From an uncultured Agathobacter sp. (lineage in GTDB: Bacteria > Bacillota > Clostridia > Lachnospirales > Lachnospiraceae), in the NCBI GenBank assembly GCA_934358675.1, contig CAKRKX010000132.1, positions 1 through 5,367 of the forward strand: DNA of 5,367 nt, written 5' to 3'. Shown here piece after piece: positions 1 through 5,367 of this stretch; positions within the stretch are counted from its first letter, which is position 1; each line of letters starts with the position of its first letter. The position numbers were made by a program, and so were the translations under genes. The notes below the pieces were generated by a model. The model saw only the letters and a program-made list of their open reading frames with translations, was not told the origin of the DNA and did no database searches.

Positions 1-1083
1 CTTGCAACCTGGAGAGAGCACCGCGAACATGAGCACCACAACGATATTGCTTTCAAAGATTACCACAAGGACAGCTACATTATCGAGCCGTACATCCCTC
101 GTTTCGGATCCGGCGAGGCAAAATGTGTGATCAACCAGTCCGTACGTGGCTATGATCTCTATATTATGGTCGATGTAACCAATTACAGCCTGACTTACTC
201 TCTGTGCGGACAGACAAACCACATGTCTCCGGACGACCACTACGCTGACTTAAAGCGTGTCATCGCTGCTGTCGGCGGTAAGGCCCGCAGAATTACGGTT
301 ATCTTGCCATTCCTGTATGAGAGCCGCCAGCACAGAAGAACCGCCCGTGAGTCTCTTGACTGCCCGTTAGCATTACAGGAGCTTTACAACATGGGAATCG
401 ACAACATCATTACCTTCGATGCTCATGATCCTCGTGTCGTAAACGCAATTCCGCTCAACGGATTTGAGAACGTAATGCCTTCTTACCAGTTCATCAAGGG
501 CATCTTAAAGAACGTGAAGGATCTCACCATCGATGCAGAGCATTTGATGATCATCAGCCCGGACGAAGGCGCAACCAACCGTGCGATCTATCTTGCCAAC
601 GTACTCGGCGTTGATATGGGTATGTTCTACAAGAGACGTGATTACAGCAAGATCGTTGACGGACGTAACCCGATCGTTGCTCATGAGTTCTTAGGCTCAA
701 ACGTTGAGGGCAAGGATGTATTGATCATCGACGATATGATCTCTTCCGGCGAGAGTATGATCGATACCGCAAGAGAGTTAAAGAAGCGCAAAGCCAACCG
801 TATCTTCGTTGTTTCTACATTCGGTCTGTTCACAAACGGACTTGCTTCTTTCGATAAGGCATACGAGGAAGGTCTGATCTACCGTGTTGTTACAACCAAC
901 CTGATCTACCAGACACCGGAACTGTTAAGCAGAGAATACTACATCAGCTGTGACATGAGTAAGTACATCGCTTACATCATCGATACTCTGAATCACGATT
1001 CTTCGATCAGCGATCTTCTCAATCCGTACGATCGTATCAAGAATTATGTACAGAAGTACAATGACGCACAGAAGAATGCATAA
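1..1083 (+). CDS. prs: Ribose-phosphate pyrophosphokinase (PRPP synthetase), 5'-truncated by the window
   Basis: This enzyme transfers pyrophosphate from ATP to ribose 5-phosphate to make PRPP, the cytosolic precursor of purines, pyrimidines, histidine, tryptophan and NAD. The reading frame is open from base 1, so the in-frame GTG at 127 is internal and the true start lies upstream. The 360 visible residues are already longer than the classical ~315-residue Prs. This fits the longer clostridial form (roughly 380-400 residues from memory). Visible motifs are FLYESRQHRR (ATP-binding counterpart of the Arg-Gln-x-Arg region), FDAHDPR near window codons 139-145 (metal/ATP histidine), YKRRDYS near codons 210-215 (catalytic flexible-loop Lys/Arg), and the PRPP-binding loop DDMISSGES at codons 244-252. 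All key residues are present. The gene is followed 23 bases later by a strong hairpin terminator, so it ends its transcript. Family assignment is very secure. Confidence 0.97.
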   Translation, partial: LATWREHREHEHHNDIAFKDYHKDSYIIEPYIPRFGSGEAKCVINQSVRGYDLYIMVDVTNYSLTYSLCGQTNHMSPDDHYADLKRVIAAVGGKARRITVILPFLYESRQHRRTARESLDCPLALQELYNMGIDNIITFDAHDPRVVNAIPLNGFENVMPSYQFIKGILKNVKDLTIDAEHLMIISPDEGATNRAIYLANVLGVDMGMFYKRRDYSKIVDGRNPIVAHEFLGSNVEGKDVLIIDDMISSGESMIDTARELKKRKANRIFVVSTFGLFTNGLASFDKAYEEGLIYRVVTTNLIYQTPELLSREYYISCDMSKYIAYIIDTLNHDSSISDLLNPYDRIKNYVQKYNDAQKNA

Positions 1084-1106
1084 TTTGACATGATTTTATA
1101 TGTATA

Positions 1107-1143
1107 AAAAATGACGGGTATGAATTTCATACTCGTCATTTTT
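1107..1143. terminator. Bidirectional terminator between prs and the HD gene
   Basis: A 17-bp stem (1107-1123 with 1127-1143) has one G-T pair and a 3-nt loop, which may open to 5 nt. Its outer pairs are A-run against T-run, so both strands end in U-rich tails. The convergent genes end 23 bases to the left (prs) and 38 bases to the right (HD gene), so one hairpin can serve both. Confidence 0.9.
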
Positions 1144-1181
1144 CGTTATTATTATCGCTTTAAAATTTGTATATTTTGCGC

Positions 1182-1784
1182 CTAATTACGAATGTGTCCC
1201 GCGTCCAGATGCGGCTGAATAAAGTTCTCCCGCGCATACTCCCACAAGACTTCCGATCCTTCCGCCGTATGTGCATTGCGTCCGAGGATCTGACTTAACT
1301 GTACACCGTGTTCTACCCACGCCTTGCCGTCTGTAGCGGCGTTCAGCATCATAGGCTGTATATTGTCCATCGTGCGTGCGAACTTCGCTTCCGGCGTCTC
1401 CTGCGCCTCAAATTCGAGCCACAGATCATACAGTTTCTTTCCCTGTTCTTCCGGAAGCATTCCATAGATGCGGTCTGCTGCCTTCTTCTCTCTTGCAGCC
1501 TGTGTTTTCTTGCCTTCCTCATCATACGCATACGTGTCTCCGGCATCAATTTCAACCAGATCATGAATGAGAAGCATGCTGATCGTACGCAGCACATCAA
1601 TCTCCTTATTCGCATATTCACTCAGTAGAAGTGTCATGATTGCCATATGCCACGCGTGTTCCGCATCATCTTCCTTGCGCGTCGCGCCGGTCAGATAGGT
1701 CTGCCGTCCGATGAACTTCTCCTTATCAATCTCGCGGATGAAATCAAATTGCTTGTCCAGACGCTGCTTTGTTTCTTTATCCAT
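1182..1784 (-). CDS. HD-domain hydrolase, HDDC2/YfbR-like 5'-deoxynucleotidase family
   Basis: This is a predicted cytosolic metal-dependent phosphohydrolase of 200 residues. It shows the HD-superfamily signature in order: H43 (EHAWHM), H74-D75 (LLIHDLVEIDAGD, with E78 and D83) and the distal D140 (ARTMDNIQP). The spacing and the EIDAGD and EFE...TPEAKFA segments match the HDDC2/YfbR-type group. Characterised members dephosphorylate deoxyribonucleoside 5'-monophosphates; the exact substrate here is inference. The ATG at 1784 is preceded by AAGGAGAG (1795-1802) about 10 nt upstream. The gene has its own candidate promoter and is separated from mscL by a terminator, so it is probably monocistronic. 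It converges on prs and shares its terminator. The length is normal for the family and nothing is missing. Confidence 0.9.
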   Translation of the reverse strand: MDKETKQRLDKQFDFIREIDKEKFIGRQTYLTGATRKEDDAEHAWHMAIMTLLLSEYANKEIDVLRTISMLLIHDLVEIDAGDTYAYDEEGKKTQAAREKKAADRIYGMLPEEQGKKLYDLWLEFEAQETPEAKFARTMDNIQPMMLNAATDGKAWVEHGVQLSQILGRNAHTAEGSEVLWEYARENFIQPHLDAGHIRN

Positions 1785-1827
1785 CTCTATCCCGCTCTCC
1801 TTTTCGGCTTACTGCTTTATTTCTTCT

Positions 1828-1836
1828 ATCATATCA
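1828..1836 (-). promoter_or_regulatory. Extended -10 promoter of the HD gene
   Basis: On the minus strand TATGAT (1833 to 1828) is preceded by TG plus one base, which makes an extended -10 element. No good -35 is seen at 17 nt. It lies between the mscL terminator and the HD-gene ribosome binding site and would give a leader of roughly 35-40 nt. Confidence 0.5.
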
Positions 1837-1844
1837 CATTCAGA

Positions 1845-1878
1845 AATAAAATGAGCCGGTGATTTTCTCACCGACTCA
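1845..1878 (-). terminator. mscL terminator
   Basis: Read on the minus strand, an 11-bp stem (1868-1878 with 1852-1862) closes a 5-nt loop and is followed by TTTTATTT. The one non-Watson-Crick position is a G-U in minus-strand RNA but C-A in plus-strand RNA, so it is built for the minus strand. It starts about 10 bases after the mscL stop codon. Confidence 0.88.
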
Positions 1879-1888
1879 CACTTTGCAT

Positions 1889-2332
1889 TTATTTTTCTTC
1901 CAGAACAGAAGTACAATGCGGGCATCTGGTTGCCTTGATATCAATTTCCGAAAAACAGTACGGACACTTCTTTGTTGTTGGTGCAGGCTTCTCCTCCTCG
2001 CCTTTTAACGTGTTCAGACGCTCCGTAAGACCGTTGATCAGCTTCAGCAATACAAAGATTACAAGAGCCGTAATCAGGAAATTAATAATTGCTGTAATAA
2101 AGTTACCGTAATGCAGTACCGGTGCATTCTCTCCGCCGCCAAGCTTCACATAAAGGTAAGAGAAATCCGTTCCTCCGAACAATCCCAGAATAGGTGTAAG
2201 GATATCCGCATTCAGCGATGTTACGATCGCCGTAAACGCGCCACCGACAATGACACCGACTGCCATGTCCATGACATTGCCTCTTAAGATAAATTTCTTG
2301 AACTCTTCCATGAATTTGCTTGTCTTCTTCAT
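1889..2332 (-). CDS. mscL: Large-conductance mechanosensitive channel MscL with C-terminal zinc ribbon
   Basis: This membrane channel opens under lateral tension and releases solutes during hypo-osmotic shock. The 147 residues show the N-terminal amphipathic helix (FMEEFKKFILRGN), first membrane segment about residues 20-40 (MDMAVGVIVGGAF, the conserved pore-lining helix with its Gly/Ala pattern), a periplasmic-type loop 41-76 with a GGG stretch, second membrane segment about 77-100, and the cytoplasmic NGLTERL helix. The tail carries CPYC (123-126) and CPHC (137-140), a zinc-ribbon pattern that, from memory, is common in clostridial MscL but absent from E. coli MscL. The ATG at 2332 has GGGAG about 11 nt upstream; the internal Met8 lacks a good site. 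It has its own promoter and terminator, so it is monocistronic. The role of the zinc ribbon is unknown. Confidence 0.96.
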   Translation of the reverse strand: MKKTSKFMEEFKKFILRGNVMDMAVGVIVGGAFTAIVTSLNADILTPILGLFGGTDFSYLYVKLGGGENAPVLHYGNFITAIINFLITALVIFVLLKLINGLTERLNTLKGEEEKPAPTTKKCPYCFSEIDIKATRCPHCTSVLEEK

Positions 2333-2375
2333 CGTGTAGTATTCTCCCTTCTTTCGTATGTTGCTTATTGATCTT

Positions 2376-2405
2376 ATTTTATCACAGAGATCCTACACTT
2401 GCCAA
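2376..2405 (-). promoter_or_regulatory. mscL promoter
   Basis: On the minus strand, -35 TTGGCA (2405 to 2400) and -10 TAAAAT (2381 to 2376) are separated by 18 bases. The -10 is preceded by TGA, giving an extended -10. This is one mismatch from consensus in each hexamer. Confidence 0.72.
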
Positions 2406-2423
2406 ATGCATAGTATATGCATT
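2405..2423. repeat. Perfect 8-bp inverted repeat upstream of mscL
   Basis: AATGCATA, a 3-base spacer GTA, and TATGCATT form a perfect inverted repeat. It touches the upstream edge of the mscL -35 element. It could be a protein-binding site; it could also be chance in A/T-rich sequence. Confidence 0.4.
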
Positions 2424-2476
2424 ATTTGTTTTATTTTGTTGTGTTGGAATCGAACCGTTATTAGTCTGATTTCTAC

Positions 2477-2506
2477 TTGTATATAGATAAGAATCTGTGT
2501 TATGCT
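2477..2506 (+). promoter_or_regulatory. Promoter of the PBECR-like nuclease gene
   Basis: -35 TTGTAT (2477-2482), an 18-base spacer and -10 TATGCT (2501-2506), the latter preceded by TGT as an extended -10. It would start transcription near 2513, giving a leader of about 68 nt that contains the hairpin at 2519-2542. Confidence 0.6.
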
Positions 2507-2518
2507 AACAAAGTAAAC

Positions 2519-2542
2519 TGGTTGTGCAAAGGGACGCAACCA
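2519..2542 (+). promoter_or_regulatory. Hairpin in the leader of the PBECR-like gene
   Basis: TGGTTGTG (2519-2526) pairs with CGCAACCA (2535-2542) through 8 bp including one U-G, with loop CAAAGGGA. It lies near the predicted 5' end of the mRNA and upstream of the ribosome binding site (AAAGGAG at 2567-2573). The 3' arm GCAACCAC is repeated in the first hairpin of sRNA-1 (3076-3083). Confidence 0.45.
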
Positions 2543-2580
2543 CAAACCAAAAAAAGTTATTGGCAGAAAGGAGAACCAAT

Positions 2581-3018
2581 ATGAAGTTTCATCAGGTTCA
2601 TATAGGAGATGACATTATCGTTAAAGAGAAAAATGTTGTAATTCACAGCCTCGGAACTCTGGACTGGAATATTTACGGTTGCATTTCTAGTAATCACACA
2701 GCCGATGAGGTAATTATTACAGAAGAACAAATGATGCATATGCGTGAAAGGCATCCCGAAGCATACATAGATACGATGCGTTACGTAAGAGAAATATTAG
2801 ATGATCCGGATTATATTTTCAGGGACAAACGTCCAAATACTGGTTTGGTTGTTAAAAAAATACATAATGGCGAAGAAAGTTCTCTTCTGGTTCTTAAAAT
2901 CATAACTTCTGATGATAATAAGGACTATAAAAATTCTGTAATTACCAGTTGGAAAGTAACCGAAAAGAGGCTGAATAACTACTTGCGTAACAAGGATGTT
3001 ATTTACAAAAAAGCATAA
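2581..3018 (+). CDS. Small stand-alone PBECR-like (phage Barnase-EndoU-ColicinE5/D-RelE fold) putative nuclease
   Basis: This is a 145-residue soluble protein with no signal peptide or membrane segment. The start is set by AAAGGAG seven bases before ATG 2581; an in-frame GTG at 2524 lies inside a leader hairpin and has no such site. Residues 44-143 resemble the PBECR nuclease fold described in polyvalent proteins of phages and conjugative elements: ITEEQMMHMRERHPE (45-60), ILDDPDYIFRD (72-82), a beta-strand-rich VVKKI...LLVLKIITS core, and NSVITSWKVTEKR (118-130). H58, S123, W124 and K125 are candidate functional residues. Residues 1-43 are a short N-terminal addition I do not recognise. Hand counts of two 60-base lines give 27-30% GC against 50% for one prs line, which suggests horizontal acquisition. 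Role (RNase toxin, or host-defence or anti-phage factor) is inference. No antitoxin protein gene is adjacent; a structured RNA gene follows directly. Confidence 0.72.
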   Translation: MKFHQVHIGDDIIVKEKNVVIHSLGTLDWNIYGCISSNHTADEVIITEEQMMHMRERHPEAYIDTMRYVREILDDPDYIFRDKRPNTGLVVKKIHNGEESSLLVLKIITSDDNKDYKNSVITSWKVTEKRLNNYLRNKDVIYKKA

Positions 3019-3030
3019 TTAAGCTATAAT
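3002..3030 (+). promoter_or_regulatory. Near-consensus promoter of sRNA-1
   Basis: -35 TTTACA (3002-3007), a 17-base spacer and -10 TATAAT (3025-3030, perfect). It overlaps the last codons and stop of the PBECR-like gene and predicts a start near 3037, about eight bases before the closing stem of the RNA. Confidence 0.75.
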
Positions 3031-3036
3031 ATGTAT

Positions 3037-3181
3037 AAGATAGTAAAGAGATTATTTGAGGTGGTAAATTTCGTTGCAACCACGCACCCTATGGGTTAAA
3101 AGAGATGCAGGAGCCGCGACGCCTGCCAAATAATCTCTTTCAGCTATAAATGCTCTGTTCCGAACGGATAGAGCTTTTTTT
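3037..3181 (+). ncRNA. sRNA-1: ~145-nt structured small RNA with multi-branched fold, family not recognised
   Basis: A discrete transcription unit with its own promoter (3002-3030) and terminator (3152-3181). A perfect 14-bp stem P1 (3045-3058 with 3127-3140) closes a junction with three hairpins: P2 3061-3065 with 3079-3083 (GTGGT/ACCAC), P3 3086-3089 with 3093-3096 (ACCC/GGGT, loop TAT), and P4 3107-3111 with 3122-3126 (GCAGG/CCTGC, 10-nt loop). The inner part is G/C-rich while P1 and the flanks are A/T-rich, as expected of a selected RNA. No plus-strand gene follows, so it is not an obvious riboswitch. The PBECR mRNA would also run through it, so it could in addition be released from that 3' UTR. 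I compared it from memory with SAM, ZTP, c-di-GMP, T-box, SRP and ribozyme patterns and none fits. Confidence 0.7.
3152..3181 (+). terminator. Intrinsic terminator of sRNA-1 and the PBECR-like gene
   Basis: GCTCT (3152-3156) pairs with AGAGC (3170-3174), with an inner TCCG/CGGA extension and an AA loop. Seven T residues follow (3175-3181). On the minus strand the tail is not U-rich, so it acts on plus-strand transcripts. Confidence 0.9.
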
Positions 3182-3218
3182 ATTTTGGTTCAAACCATTG
3201 ATTAGCAGGCTTCTCAAA

Positions 3219-3638
3219 TCAATCATCTTCCTCTATTATACGATTTTCCTTAAAAAATACCATCTTTTCCTTTACCTGATCTGGCACATCAATGAGCCCG
3301 AATCGATAGAACAGCGCATAGATATACGTCACTCCACGGATATCCCCCAGCGCCTTCGGTCGCTCCACCACACTTCCGATTTTCCCAATATGGGAAAAAG
3401 CCAACATCACCGAACTCCACACCAGACTCTTGCTACAGCCTCGGCGATCGATCCACAGCTCCTTCGTGTACGCTCCACTTCGCCCCCTTCGCAATTCATA
3501 TGAAAACTCTAATCCCGAGTATGTCTTAAAAACGGCTCCCTGAAAAAGGCATACCGCATCCCACAGATTTTCCTCGGACGGCTCCGCCTGTAAGACCGCA
3601 AGCATATTTTGTTCCCGATTTAAGTTATGTTCGTTCAC
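3219..3638 (-). CDS. Conserved-looking hypothetical protein, second gene of the HNH operon
   Basis: A 139-residue, probably cytosolic protein of unknown function. The GTG at 3638 is chosen because AAGGAG (3646-3651) sits seven bases upstream; the frame stays open to another GTG at 3662 but that has no such site. Residues 1-30 look helical (NREQNMLAVLQAEPSEENLWDAVCLF). The middle has alternating charged and aromatic residues (YELRRGRSGAYTKELWIDRR) ending in a WSSVMLAF helix. The C-terminal half carries the striking run VVERPKALGDIRGVTYIYALFYRFG, followed by a basic and then acidic tail (FFKENRIIEEDD). There is no recognisable catalytic motif, signal or membrane span. I have an impression of similar proteins in Lachnospiraceae but cannot name the family. 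It starts 33 bases after the stop of the HNH-like gene, so the two are almost certainly co-transcribed. No clear minus-strand terminator is visible after it. Confidence 0.8.
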   Translation of the reverse strand: MNEHNLNREQNMLAVLQAEPSEENLWDAVCLFQGAVFKTYSGLEFSYELRRGRSGAYTKELWIDRRGCSKSLVWSSVMLAFSHIGKIGSVVERPKALGDIRGVTYIYALFYRFGLIDVPDQVKEKMVFFKENRIIEEDD

Positions 3639-3671
3639 TATTGTACTCCTTACACCTTCCACTGGAAATCG

Positions 3672-4811
3672 TCATCTGCCGGGATGCATCGCTTCAACAA
3701 GATACTCTGCAAATCGAAGCTCTCTCCTGTTCTCCCAGTCACAGACAAATCCATCCATCTCCCCAAACTCTGAACAATCCTCTTGTGACAAAACAACCGT
3801 CATCGGACTCACTGTTCCATATAGCATAACATTCGCAACAAGCCCTCCCGGAACCGGACAAACAAGAATGGTATGTCTCCACCGCCCAAACGCCTTAGCA
3901 TCGTCAATTTTATCCAACACATCCATATGGTTGTCTTTTTGCCCCTGCATAAAAACAACCTGATCAATGTCCTCACCGGTTAAGATAGCATTCCGAATCG
4001 CATCAAATTTCTTCTGCATCACATATTCACAGCCTCGCAGCTCCGCCAAACAATTAAAAGCAATCTTCGCAGTCACACGAAAATATGCATTGATATCGAT
4101 CATCTGCTGCATATTCGCAGTCACATGCTCGTCCGATGTACGAACAGTTCCAAACTGACCACTTTCAAGCTGTGACTCATAAGAACTTACAAAACGCGAA
4201 AGCTCCGTATATACCTCTTCTTTTAAAACAGAATCGCTTTCTCCCGGCGCCGCTGCCACATACCATTTACCGCTCTCATGTCCAACCAGGATCTCATCTG
4301 CATCCATGCCGTCCTCTCTTAAGACAATCGCATCTCCGGCATACGTCTTCAACAATTCAACCATCTCCATCGCCTTATCGTAGAAAGCATCTTCTTCCAC
4401 ACTTCCACGATCAAACCCAACTTCTACTCTGCGCTGGTTGTCCGCAATACGAACGATATGAATCTGATCAATATGAATCGGCTTACCCATACAGATGTAC
4501 CCTAAACGATAGCGGTCCCTTTCGTTCGATTTCATCACCGAAATCATCTTACTGGCGCCGCCTCTTCGCTTCGGATTATGGCTTCCACGTTTTCCCGGTC
4601 CCACAAACATTCGCATAAGCGTAACCGGCGAATTTCTTGCAAGCTTAAGCTCCAATCCGGAAAAAAGCGCATTCGCCTCATCCGAAACATACCCCCTGGG
4701 TAATCGTTTCATCCCACCGATACATGCCGGAATAATATGTTCCTGATTTACAAAATGTGCCTGTGAATCATCTTTGCCTGTGTAGATACATTTACATTCC
4801 GGTTGCTTCAT
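3672..4811 (-). CDS. HNH-endonuclease-like protein with degenerate zinc ligands
   Basis: A 379-residue protein. The ATG at 4811 is preceded by GAGGAA (4818-4823) with 6-nt spacing; an in-frame TTG at 4847 would overlap the predicted transcript start. The N-terminus has the layout of an HNH nuclease of the 'CIYCGK...EHIIP..LGG...N..FS..E' type: CIYTGK (8-13), EHIIPACIGG (24-33), EANALFSGLE (45-54), then ARNSPVTLMRMFVGPGKRG (58-76). H25 and N47 are the candidate catalytic residues. The usual zinc cysteines appear replaced (T11, S43, A46). Residues ~95-379 form a large C-terminal region without a motif I recognise, containing mixed helical and beta stretches. GC content (47% in one 60-base line) is like the core genes. 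It leads a two-gene operon with its own promoter. Function may be DNA cleavage, or an inactive relative; the target is unknown. Confidence 0.78.
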   Translation of the reverse strand: MKQPECKCIYTGKDDSQAHFVNQEHIIPACIGGMKRLPRGYVSDEANALFSGLELKLARNSPVTLMRMFVGPGKRGSHNPKRRGGASKMISVMKSNERDRYRLGYICMGKPIHIDQIHIVRIADNQRRVEVGFDRGSVEEDAFYDKAMEMVELLKTYAGDAIVLREDGMDADEILVGHESGKWYVAAAPGESDSVLKEEVYTELSRFVSSYESQLESGQFGTVRTSDEHVTANMQQMIDINAYFRVTAKIAFNCLAELRGCEYVMQKKFDAIRNAILTGEDIDQVVFMQGQKDNHMDVLDKIDDAKAFGRWRHTILVCPVPGGLVANVMLYGTVSPMTVVLSQEDCSEFGEMDGFVCDWENRRELRFAEYLVEAMHPGR

Positions 4812-4855
4812 ATTCGATTCCTCATTTCTTCCTATAACCGCTATCAATGTGCTAT

Positions 4856-4883
4856 AACATAAAATATTTTCTTAAAAGGTCAA
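4856..4883 (-). promoter_or_regulatory. Promoter of the HNH operon
   Basis: On the minus strand, -35 TTGACC (4883 to 4878), a 16-base spacer and -10 TATGTT (4861 to 4856). It predicts a start near 4849 and a leader of about 38 nt. It is divergent from the sRNA-2 promoter, with the two -35 elements only 24 bases apart. Confidence 0.62.
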
Positions 4884-4899
4884 TGCTAACTGTATCGAA

Positions 4900-4927
4900 G
4901 AGGGCACTTGAAAAAACAAGCACCCTC
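4900..4927. repeat. Imperfect inverted repeat between divergent promoters (candidate operator)
   Basis: GAGGGCACTTG (4900-4910) and CAAGCACCCTC (4917-4927) match at 9 of 11 positions around a six-A spacer. The repeat covers the sRNA-2 -35 and part of its spacer and ends 17 bases from the HNH-operon -35. The two unmatched positions become G-U pairs in minus-strand RNA, but no minus-strand transcript is expected here, so a DNA-binding site is the simpler reading. Confidence 0.45.
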
Positions 4928-4936
4928 ATGTATAAT
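4908..4936 (+). promoter_or_regulatory. Consensus promoter of sRNA-2
   Basis: -35 TTGAAA (4908-4913), a 17-base spacer and -10 TATAAT (4931-4936, perfect). It predicts a start near 4943. Confidence 0.75.
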
Positions 4937-4942
4937 CTATTT

Positions 4943-5039
4943 AGGAAGTGAATCGGATGTGAGTCCGATTTGCACTCAGTAAAATTTATATCAAATTTGA
5001 AATAGCATCTACTTGGGCGAGTGGGATGCTATTTCTTTT
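4943..5039 (+). ncRNA. sRNA-2: ~97-nt compact small RNA with terminator, family not recognised
   Basis: A second independent RNA unit with a consensus promoter directly upstream. The 5' hairpin joins AGTG (4947-4950) to CACT (4973-4976) and AATCGGA (4951-4957) to TCCGATT (4964-4970), giving 11 bp with a 2-nt bulge (TG, 4971-4972) and a hexaloop TGTGAG. An A/T-rich single-stranded linker (about 4977-4998) leads into the terminator. No plus-strand gene starts before the window's last three bases, and another promoter lies between, so a leader or riboswitch role is less likely than a free-standing regulatory RNA. No good ribosome binding site plus ORF is seen inside. Confidence 0.62.
4999..5039 (+). 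terminator. Intrinsic terminator of sRNA-2
   Basis: An 11-bp perfect stem (GAAATAGCATC 4999-5009 with GATGCTATTTC 5025-5035) is topped by a short ACTT/GAGT extension with loop GGGC. Four T residues follow (5036-5039). Confidence 0.85.
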
Positions 5040-5127
5040 CAGTTATACAAAGAGATTATAGCGCAATACAAACGCACGTTCAACTCAAAATCAGACACTC
5101 AATATATCTAAAAATTGCAAAGTTAAA
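5040..5127. other. A/T-rich intergenic stretch without recognised content
   Basis: The gene-free region 4812-5364 is otherwise occupied by promoters, sRNA-2 and a structured leader. In this part I see no ORF with a ribosome binding site, no hairpin of note and no promoter on either strand. Confidence 0.5.
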
Positions 5128-5145
5128 TTTGCGTGCATACGCAAA
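5128..5145. repeat. Perfect 7-bp inverted repeat upstream of the leader promoter (candidate operator)
   Basis: TTTGCGT, spacer GCAT, ACGCAAA. It ends six bases before the -35 element at 5152, a usual place for a regulator-binding site. It lacks a following T-run on either strand that would make it a terminator. Confidence 0.4.
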
Positions 5146-5151
5146 AAATTC

Positions 5152-5180
5152 TTGACTTTTCACCTGTCATTCGCTATTCT
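5152..5180 (+). promoter_or_regulatory. Promoter of the downstream gene's long leader
   Basis: -35 TTGACT (5152-5157), a 17-base spacer and -10 TATTCT (5175-5180). Each hexamer is close to consensus. Predicted start is near 5187, ten bases before the folded leader element. Confidence 0.65.
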
Positions 5181-5196
5181 GAATTCACAACATCTA

Positions 5197-5264
5197 TATC
5201 CATTTCAAGCAACTTGGTTGCCAGATCATAACGAACCATTTTCCGGTTCAATTATCAATGGATA
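5197..5264 (+). promoter_or_regulatory. Three-way-junction-like structured leader RNA
   Basis: Closing stem TATCCATT (5197-5204) with AATGGATA (5257-5264), 8 bp perfect. Inside are hairpin GCAAC-TTG-GTTGC (5209-5221) and hairpin GAACC...GGTTC (5233-5237 with 5245-5249). It sits ten bases after a predicted transcription start and about 100 bases before a start codon, the layout of a cis-regulatory leader. I do not recognise a known riboswitch consensus. Confidence 0.42.
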
Positions 5265-5280
5265 GGACAATTAAATATTT

Positions 5281-5328
5281 TAAATCATTATGATTTATTT
5301 TTGCTTTTTGGGGGTGTGAAAATAAATC
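5281..5328 (+). promoter_or_regulatory. Overlapping, mutually exclusive hairpins before the last start codon
   Basis: Perfect repeat TAAATCA-TTA-TGATTTA (5281-5297) competes with GATTTATTTT (5292-5301) pairing to AAAATAAATC (5319-5328), 10 bp. The segment 5292-5297 can pair in only one of them. As DNA, the first repeat could also be an operator. A weaker promoter (TTGGGG 5308-5313, 17 bases, TATGAT 5331-5336) overlaps this region. Confidence 0.4.
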
Positions 5329-5364
5329 TTTATGATATATACTAAAGGAAAGGTAACATACTAT

Positions 5365-5367
5365 ATG
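5365..5367 (+). CDS. Start codon of a gene running off the window
   Basis: The last three bases are ATG, preceded by a purine-rich ribosome binding site (AAAGGAAAGG, 5344-5353) 11 bases upstream and by the leader region 5187-5364. No coding sequence is visible, so the product cannot be stated. It could also be a chance ATG in A/T-rich DNA. Confidence 0.4.

Follow-up and report, generated by a model that had tools for sequence, protein, structure and literature searches.

What does a small structured RNA do when its gene stands directly behind a short protein-coding gene and carries a promoter and a terminator of its own? The question is raised by the window, a stretch of 5,367 nucleotides from an uncultured Agathobacter sp. 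of the Lachnospiraceae (GenBank assembly GCA_934358675.1, contig CAKRKX010000132.1, positions 1 to 5,367), in which such an RNA lies 32 nt after the stop codon of a PBECR2 gene on the same strand. An earlier note, written from the letters alone, had found no known family for the RNA and offered three readings: a trans-acting RNA, an RNA that acts as antitoxin or decoy towards the neighbouring nuclease, or an unclassified structured RNA. The RNA is a member of the skipping-rope family (Rfam RF02924), and the comparisons reported here, all of them sequence-based and with genomes sampled from one family (Lachnospiraceae) and its phylum, make it likely that it serves as an RNA antitoxin which binds and blocks the RNase that the PBECR2 gene is predicted to encode. 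The PBECR partner is what our analysis adds to an already known RNA family. The features of the pair are the following.

2581-3018, plus strand: PBECR2 gene, 145 aa, predicted phage BECR-type RNase toxin
3002-3007, plus strand: TTTACA, the -35 box of the RNA promoter, within codons ATT-TAC-AAA (Ile-Tyr-Lys) of the toxin gene
3025-3030, plus strand: -10 box TATAAT of the RNA promoter; predicted transcription start near 3037
3045-3058, plus strand: 5' arm of P1, the 14-bp closing stem (from the sequence and Rfam P1)
3051-3134, plus strand: skipping-rope RNA core, RF02924 (cmscan 67.6 bits, E 3.2e-15)
3061-3083, plus strand: P2 hairpin (from the RF02924 alignment)
3072-3077, plus strand: P2 loop CGUUGC, 5' half of the kissing helix
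3085-3102, plus strand: P3 hairpin (from the RF02924 alignment)
3107-3126, plus strand: P4 hairpin (from the RF02924 alignment)
3116-3121, plus strand: P4 loop GCGACG, 3' half of the kissing helix
3127-3140, plus strand: 3' arm of P1, pairing perfectly with 3045-3058 over 14 bp (from the sequence and Rfam P1)
3152-3181, plus strand: intrinsic terminator of the RNA, a hairpin (3152-3174) followed by seven T

The match to RF02924 covers the whole model (positions 1-80) and scores far above the gathering cut-off of 36.7 bits. The earlier note had proposed a cmscan search against Rfam and had named a confident match to a known family as the outcome that would overturn it; this is what was found, so that neither the absence of a known family nor the unclassified structured RNA survives, and the reading as a novel RNA family was rejected. 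The match names the family without explaining its function. Skipping-rope RNAs were reportedly first described in 2017, by Weinberg et al. The Rfam type is only "Gene; sRNA", and no reported function was found in the open-licence literature, subscription papers being mostly outside its coverage. In the sections available, the Rfam 14 paper displays a pseudoknot for the family and gives no function (PMC7779021), a phage-host study in which skipping-rope accounts for 1% of the phage ncRNAs used likewise gives none (PMC8501573), and two further papers name the family or its accession (PMC11507696, PMC7682815).

Most of the anatomy that had been described for the RNA gene was confirmed. The promoter, TTTACA-17-TATAAT at 3002-3030, matches the consensus at 11 of 12 positions; the 14-bp closing stem is perfect, the three internal hairpins are P2, P3 and P4 of the RF02924 alignment, and the terminator is as had been described. 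The predicted fold of the region 3002-3200 is more stable than that of 200 out of 200 shuffles (z -3.35). Of the supposed cloverleaf, the closing stem with three hairpins stands; the fold is not of the tRNA type, being a four-way junction in which the loops of P2 and P4 kiss. The plus strand is indeed without a gene for 2 kb on the 3' side of the RNA, both long downstream open reading frames (ORFs) being on the minus strand, and a riboswitch or leader was rejected on this ground.

The structure was scored on an alignment (A2) restricted by choice to 47 class-A RNAs and made with MAFFT from sequence alone, the structure itself having been drawn on the window RNA. P1, P2, P4 and the helix between the P2 and P4 loops show 97.7% standard pairs, compared to 32-49% when the structure is slid along the alignment, and none of 500 shuffles matched any of five structure measures. 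Changes on both sides occur in all 8 counted pairs of P1 and at 4 of the 6 pairs of the kissing helix, 98.6% of whose cells are paired. Across classes, where 112 of 130 RNAs could be parsed (6 of these 112 without a kiss), a P2 loop fits its own P4 loop better (8.67) than a swapped one (5.73; highest of 200 swaps 6.34). A loop-loop pseudoknot, as expected of a skipping-rope RNA, is present as P2 loop with P4 loop and may correspond to Rfam pk_1.

The protein encoded upstream matches Pfam family PF18810 (PBECR2) with an E-value of 8.9e-8 and 32.8 bits, above the curated cut-off of 27.1, as well as phrog_29609 (E 2.6e-43), and has 233 relatives at E <= 0.001. Residues H53, K92 and T122 are invariant across the 48 sequences of alignment A4. 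The only other Pfam family found at E <= 0.01 was MuF_C, under its own cut-off; Pfam gave no MuF or minor-capsid match in the 145 residues, and the window PBECR2 is a solo form that is not fused to a head protein. PADLOC returned no match at E <= 0.01 for five proteins, Foldseek none at 1e-3, and a sequence search of the PDB only weak matches to ribosomal proteins and regulators (best E 0.051). PBECR domains have been proposed as RNase effectors (Iyer et al. 2017), and the predicted toxin belongs to the same domain family; the term "small RNA" does not occur in the main text of that paper.

The linkage between RNA and protein holds in both directions. RF02924 matches above the cut-off were found in 59 of 397 family genomes and 27 of 398 phylum genomes. 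Blautia caecimuris DSM 29492 has an RNA identical to the one in the window (L010/L025). We counted 98 RNAs, which are 105 over-cut-off places minus three downstream array copies and four with less than 450 nt upstream; identical RNAs (L079 and L101) were retained, and twelve below-cut-off rows were excluded, among them L136-L139, of which L138 and L139 lie, by eye, in coding sequence. At 61 of the 98, a same-strand PBECR ORF lies no more than 250 nt upstream, with a median of 40 nt (range 13-89) from the last toxin codon to the RNA. Such an ORF was never found upstream on the opposite strand or downstream on the same strand; genome G681 provides the two cases in which it lies downstream and on the opposite strand, and at 35 RNAs there was none. 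With all copies included the upstream same-strand arrangement occurs at 64 of 105 RNAs, and in a separate 16-row set, counted apart, 7 of 16 are paired. To detect the ORFs, a profile was started from three loci and extended by repeated searches of all six-frame ORFs; an RNA-blind profile built only from relatives of the window protein gave the same picture at fewer loci, its matches lying on the same strand and upstream of or into the RNA except at L060. At L060 and L084, the two G681 loci, the RNA is on the opposite strand, its 3' end facing the 3' end of a PBECR3 gene.

In the reverse direction, searching 299 Lachnospiraceae genomes with PF18810 gave 37 places, spread over 33 genomes and in 32 cases scoring above the Pfam cut-off. 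At 35 of the 37 an RF02924 match lies directly downstream on the same strand, at a distance of 34-119 nt from where the domain match stops. The two places without RNA are in G279 (L155), where the protein is C-terminally short with a frame of 103 aa, and in G099 (L171), which looks intact. These counts rest on RF02924 because R1, an RNA model of our own, drew on 50 RNAs, many of which come from loci later scanned with it; R1 finds the RNA in 28 of the 30 PF18810 loci given to it and misses the same two. A phylum draw of 199 genomes, which overlaps other draws, has the RNA by coordinates at 6 of 6 PF18810 places. The family genomes drawn for the PF18810 and RF02924 searches overlap as well, as do the phylum draws for PF18810, PF18812 and RF02924. 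For the related PF18812 (PBECR3), 398 genomes yielded 24 places in 23 genes, one gene in G714 being split in two. An RNA was detected by R1 near 16 of the 18 genes with frames of up to 509 aa (two of these, in G681, on the opposite strand), and at none of the five with frames of 693-2356 aa (L172, L182, L184, L186, L192; R1 scan of the loci), in which these differ from the majority of solo and MuF-fused forms.

Viral contigs of IMG/VR follow the same rule. Protein alignments A5, A6 and A7 found 39 loci (6, 23 and 10), and all 39 have a same-strand RNA (34 distinct RNAs), in 38 cases 32-80 nt after the protein match; the window protein alone and alignment A8 each found 0 loci in these contigs. 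Of seven viral pattern matches one (L007) has an RNA above the cut-off, there without a PBECR ORF beside it (L023). In the remaining one of the 39 loci, L207, the RNA lies 2271 nt from the protein match and both partners are kept. A minus-strand ORF of 627 aa, transposase-like by eye, lies between duplicated ends at 2918-5188 of L207 and separates toxin and RNA.

Open frames of more than 300 aa occur in 20 of the 39 viral loci. All 15 long partners that were scanned (nine viral, six genomic) are Phage_Mu_F or Phage_min_cap2 proteins that end in a PBECR2 match, which in one of them (L056) is just under the cut-off at 25.6 bits. The N-terminal MuF or minor-capsid domain is thus present in 15 of 15 scanned long relatives and absent from the window protein. 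As the long partners are head proteins with a C-terminal PBECR2, the RNA would be an immunity element of MuF toxins.

The toxin gene moreover contains part of the promoter-like sequence of the RNA. Thirty loci encode a toxin with the C-terminus [ILV]-Tyr-[KSR]. All 30 use TAC for this Tyr, compared to 79 of 272 other Tyr codons of the same genes, and in all 30 the preceding codon ends in TT, compared to 497 of 1436 other Ile, Leu or Val codons. Together these choices spell the TTTACA -35 box inside the toxin coding sequence, although the 30 loci are related and do not represent independent events. A promoter-like pair precedes the RNA at 57 of the 61 toxin-linked loci, where mononucleotide shuffles predict 11.1, and a terminator-like hairpin follows it at 38 of 59, where shuffles predict 1.8. 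Such a promoter-like sequence argues against an RNA that is simply a 3' element of the toxin mRNA, concerned with its stability or termination and without a role in trans. The median distance of 40 nt from the last codon would suit such an element, but an RNA that has a promoter-like sequence of its own, in 30 loci inside the toxin codons, and that occurs also where there is no toxin, is very unlikely to be one.

RNA and toxin diverge in parallel. Over 65 loci their distances are correlated (Spearman rho 0.772, a value reached by 0 of 999 permutations), while the composition of the flanks is uncorrelated with either RNA or protein distances (0.03, 0.06). This bears on the possibility that the RNA is a general trans-acting small RNA which merely travels with a mobile gene. 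Its patchy spread over the genomes and its stand-alone copies could be understood in this way. A bystander would hardly be tied to one protein family, in one order and at one spacing, and then diverge together with its neighbour, and we regard this alternative of the earlier note as highly improbable.

Another possibility is base pairing between the RNA and the mRNA of the toxin, which would stop translation in the style of type I antitoxins; the RNA gene does adjoin that of the predicted toxin. Type I antitoxins are antisense to the toxin mRNA; the skipping-rope RNAs of 49 loci gave no sign of this. With start sites chosen by a simple rule, the RNAs of these loci pair with the start region of their own toxin at -31.1 kcal/mol, with swapped ones at -30.5 and with shuffled ones at -30.1, and the mean rank of the own pairing is 0.46, where 0.5 is random. 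Antisense control was rejected because own and swapped pairing are about equal. The RNA moreover shares the strand of the toxin gene, lies 3' to it and is heavily self-paired. Regulation of this kind is extremely unlikely, and action at the level of the protein is therefore the likelier one.

The two partners differ in how often they occur alone. RNAs without a toxin are common (35 of 98), PBECR2 without an RNA is rare (2 of 37). Nineteen toxin-less class-A RNAs were checked and keep their fold (95.9% for the helices, 99.1% for the kiss); among the 35, a promoter-like pair was found at 16 (3.4 expected) and a terminator-like hairpin at 18 (1.4 expected). The ORFs upstream of them are heterogeneous by eye (28 listed of 35), and when the frames of the toxin-less loci were searched for remains of a toxin, a single weak match to its C-terminal part came up (L027, E 0.0032).

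Nine arrays contain unlike RNAs, whose members are 38-75% identical, random toxin-linked RNAs averaging 47%; in L028 about 1 kb separates the two RNAs, and L149 and L126 denote one place. Most members are nearest to RNAs of different toxin subtypes. In L032, for example, the first RNA matches the PBECR3 subtype of the locus itself, and the second shares 84% identity with the RNA that accompanies the L045 subtype. Exceptions are the two RNAs of L149 and a further two in L121, which are 73-75% identical to each other, and L221 has no close match (72-79%). Such arrays resemble the polyimmunity loci that are mentioned for protein immunity in the available part of one source (PMC11699363).

These observations speak for an antitoxin, as PBECR2 rarely occurs without the RNA, the RNA often occurs without the toxin and with its fold kept, and arrays hold unlike RNAs, most of which are nearest to those of other toxin subtypes. 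They also have to be weighed against an RNA that the PBECR RNase needs as a guide or cofactor, for example for aiming or for packaging into the phage head, rather than as an inhibitor. A guide would show the same linkage and co-divergence, and the many partners that are phage head proteins would suit it. It would be less expected to persist alone with its fold intact, to be dispensable for the large PBECR3 proteins, or to gather in arrays whose members are nearest to the RNAs of other toxin subtypes. Immunity fits the solo RNAs, the RNA-free large PBECR3 proteins and the array members better, and we consider a guide or cofactor unlikely, if less so than the other alternatives. Of the readings in the earlier note it is thus the antitoxin or decoy that the two-way linkage, the co-divergence and the arrays favour.

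Our best reading of these comparisons is that the pair would work like a type III toxin-antitoxin system, with a different toxin fold, RNA family and gene order. In type III systems (ToxIN, CptIN, TenpIN), as described in the accessible part of a survey, an RNase toxin is combined with a small pseudoknotted RNA and the two co-evolve; the RNA lies upstream of the toxin as several toxin-cut repeats behind one promoter, with a terminator before the toxin gene (PMC5086642). An RNase toxin, here a predicted one, a small pseudoknotted RNA and the co-evolution of the two are common to both. The skipping-rope RNA differs in lying downstream of the toxin, with its own promoter-like sequence, and in being single in the window, while the nine arrays elsewhere hold unlike RNAs. 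The window toxin is of the PBECR type and not of the ToxN, CptN or TenpN type (Pfam, PADLOC).

The nearest precedent for skipping-rope as an antitoxin is the abiF RNA (RCd22, RF03085), an Rfam motif from a Clostridioides difficile prophage that, in the portion of the paper available, binds and neutralises AbiF directly; AbiF has a HEPN RNase motif, and its RNA lies upstream and carries two short motifs (PMC12373285). The present pair differs from AbiF/RCd22 in RNA family, in protein family and in the upstream position of the latter RNA. Two sources on the polymorphic MuF toxins of temperate phages report or assume immunity by proteins (PMC5576092, PMC11699363). The immunity described there is a protein, whereas that conferred by skipping-rope would be an RNA. 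The open-licence literature, which leaves most subscription papers outside its coverage, yielded no paper that connects skipping-rope with PBECR or MuF.

The system could then operate as follows. The RNA would be made steadily from its own promoter and stay in excess, each toxin subtype being matched by an RNA subtype of its own. A prophage may express its toxin late, within a MuF-type head protein, and deliver it to the next cell. In lysogens, the RNA already present would give protection from the toxin that they encode as well as from incoming toxin. The solo copy in the window would work as a chromosomal toxin-antitoxin pair. Whether skipping-rope RNAs in general provide RNA immunity against PBECR RNases delivered by phage heads, with the cognate RNA sequestering the toxin in lysogens and with stand-alone and array RNAs as polyimmunity loci collected by bacteria and phages, is a wider proposal that we hold to be evenly balanced on the present genomic patterns.

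If correct, a specific function would be proposed for an Rfam family for which no reported one was found, and a likely immunity element would be named for a class of phage-head RNase toxins, and RNA could fill the role in which immunity proteins have been described for polymorphic toxins. Among toxin systems neutralised by RNA, the toxin fold, the RNA architecture and the gene order would all be new.

The surroundings of the pair contain further elements. Downstream of the skipping-rope RNA two adjoining minus-strand genes are found, one at 3219-3662, which has no Pfam, NCBIfam or PHROG family match, and one at 3672-4847, which matches phrog_35254 (1.3e-68), a family of unknown function. At 4908-5040 on the plus strand there is a second stand-alone candidate RNA, with a promoter (TTGAAA-17-TATAAT), two strong hairpins and a fold z of -4.45. 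It has no Rfam match at E <= 10; a stretch that is 81% identical occurs in phage record MT835472, and DNA relatives, some of them partial, are present in 19 of 250 genomes in up to 3 copies. Elsewhere, an 8-kb locus of Blautia massiliensis (L014) that has a sub-threshold skipping-rope match also carries a RAGATH-18 RNA (RF03064) at 5414-5486.
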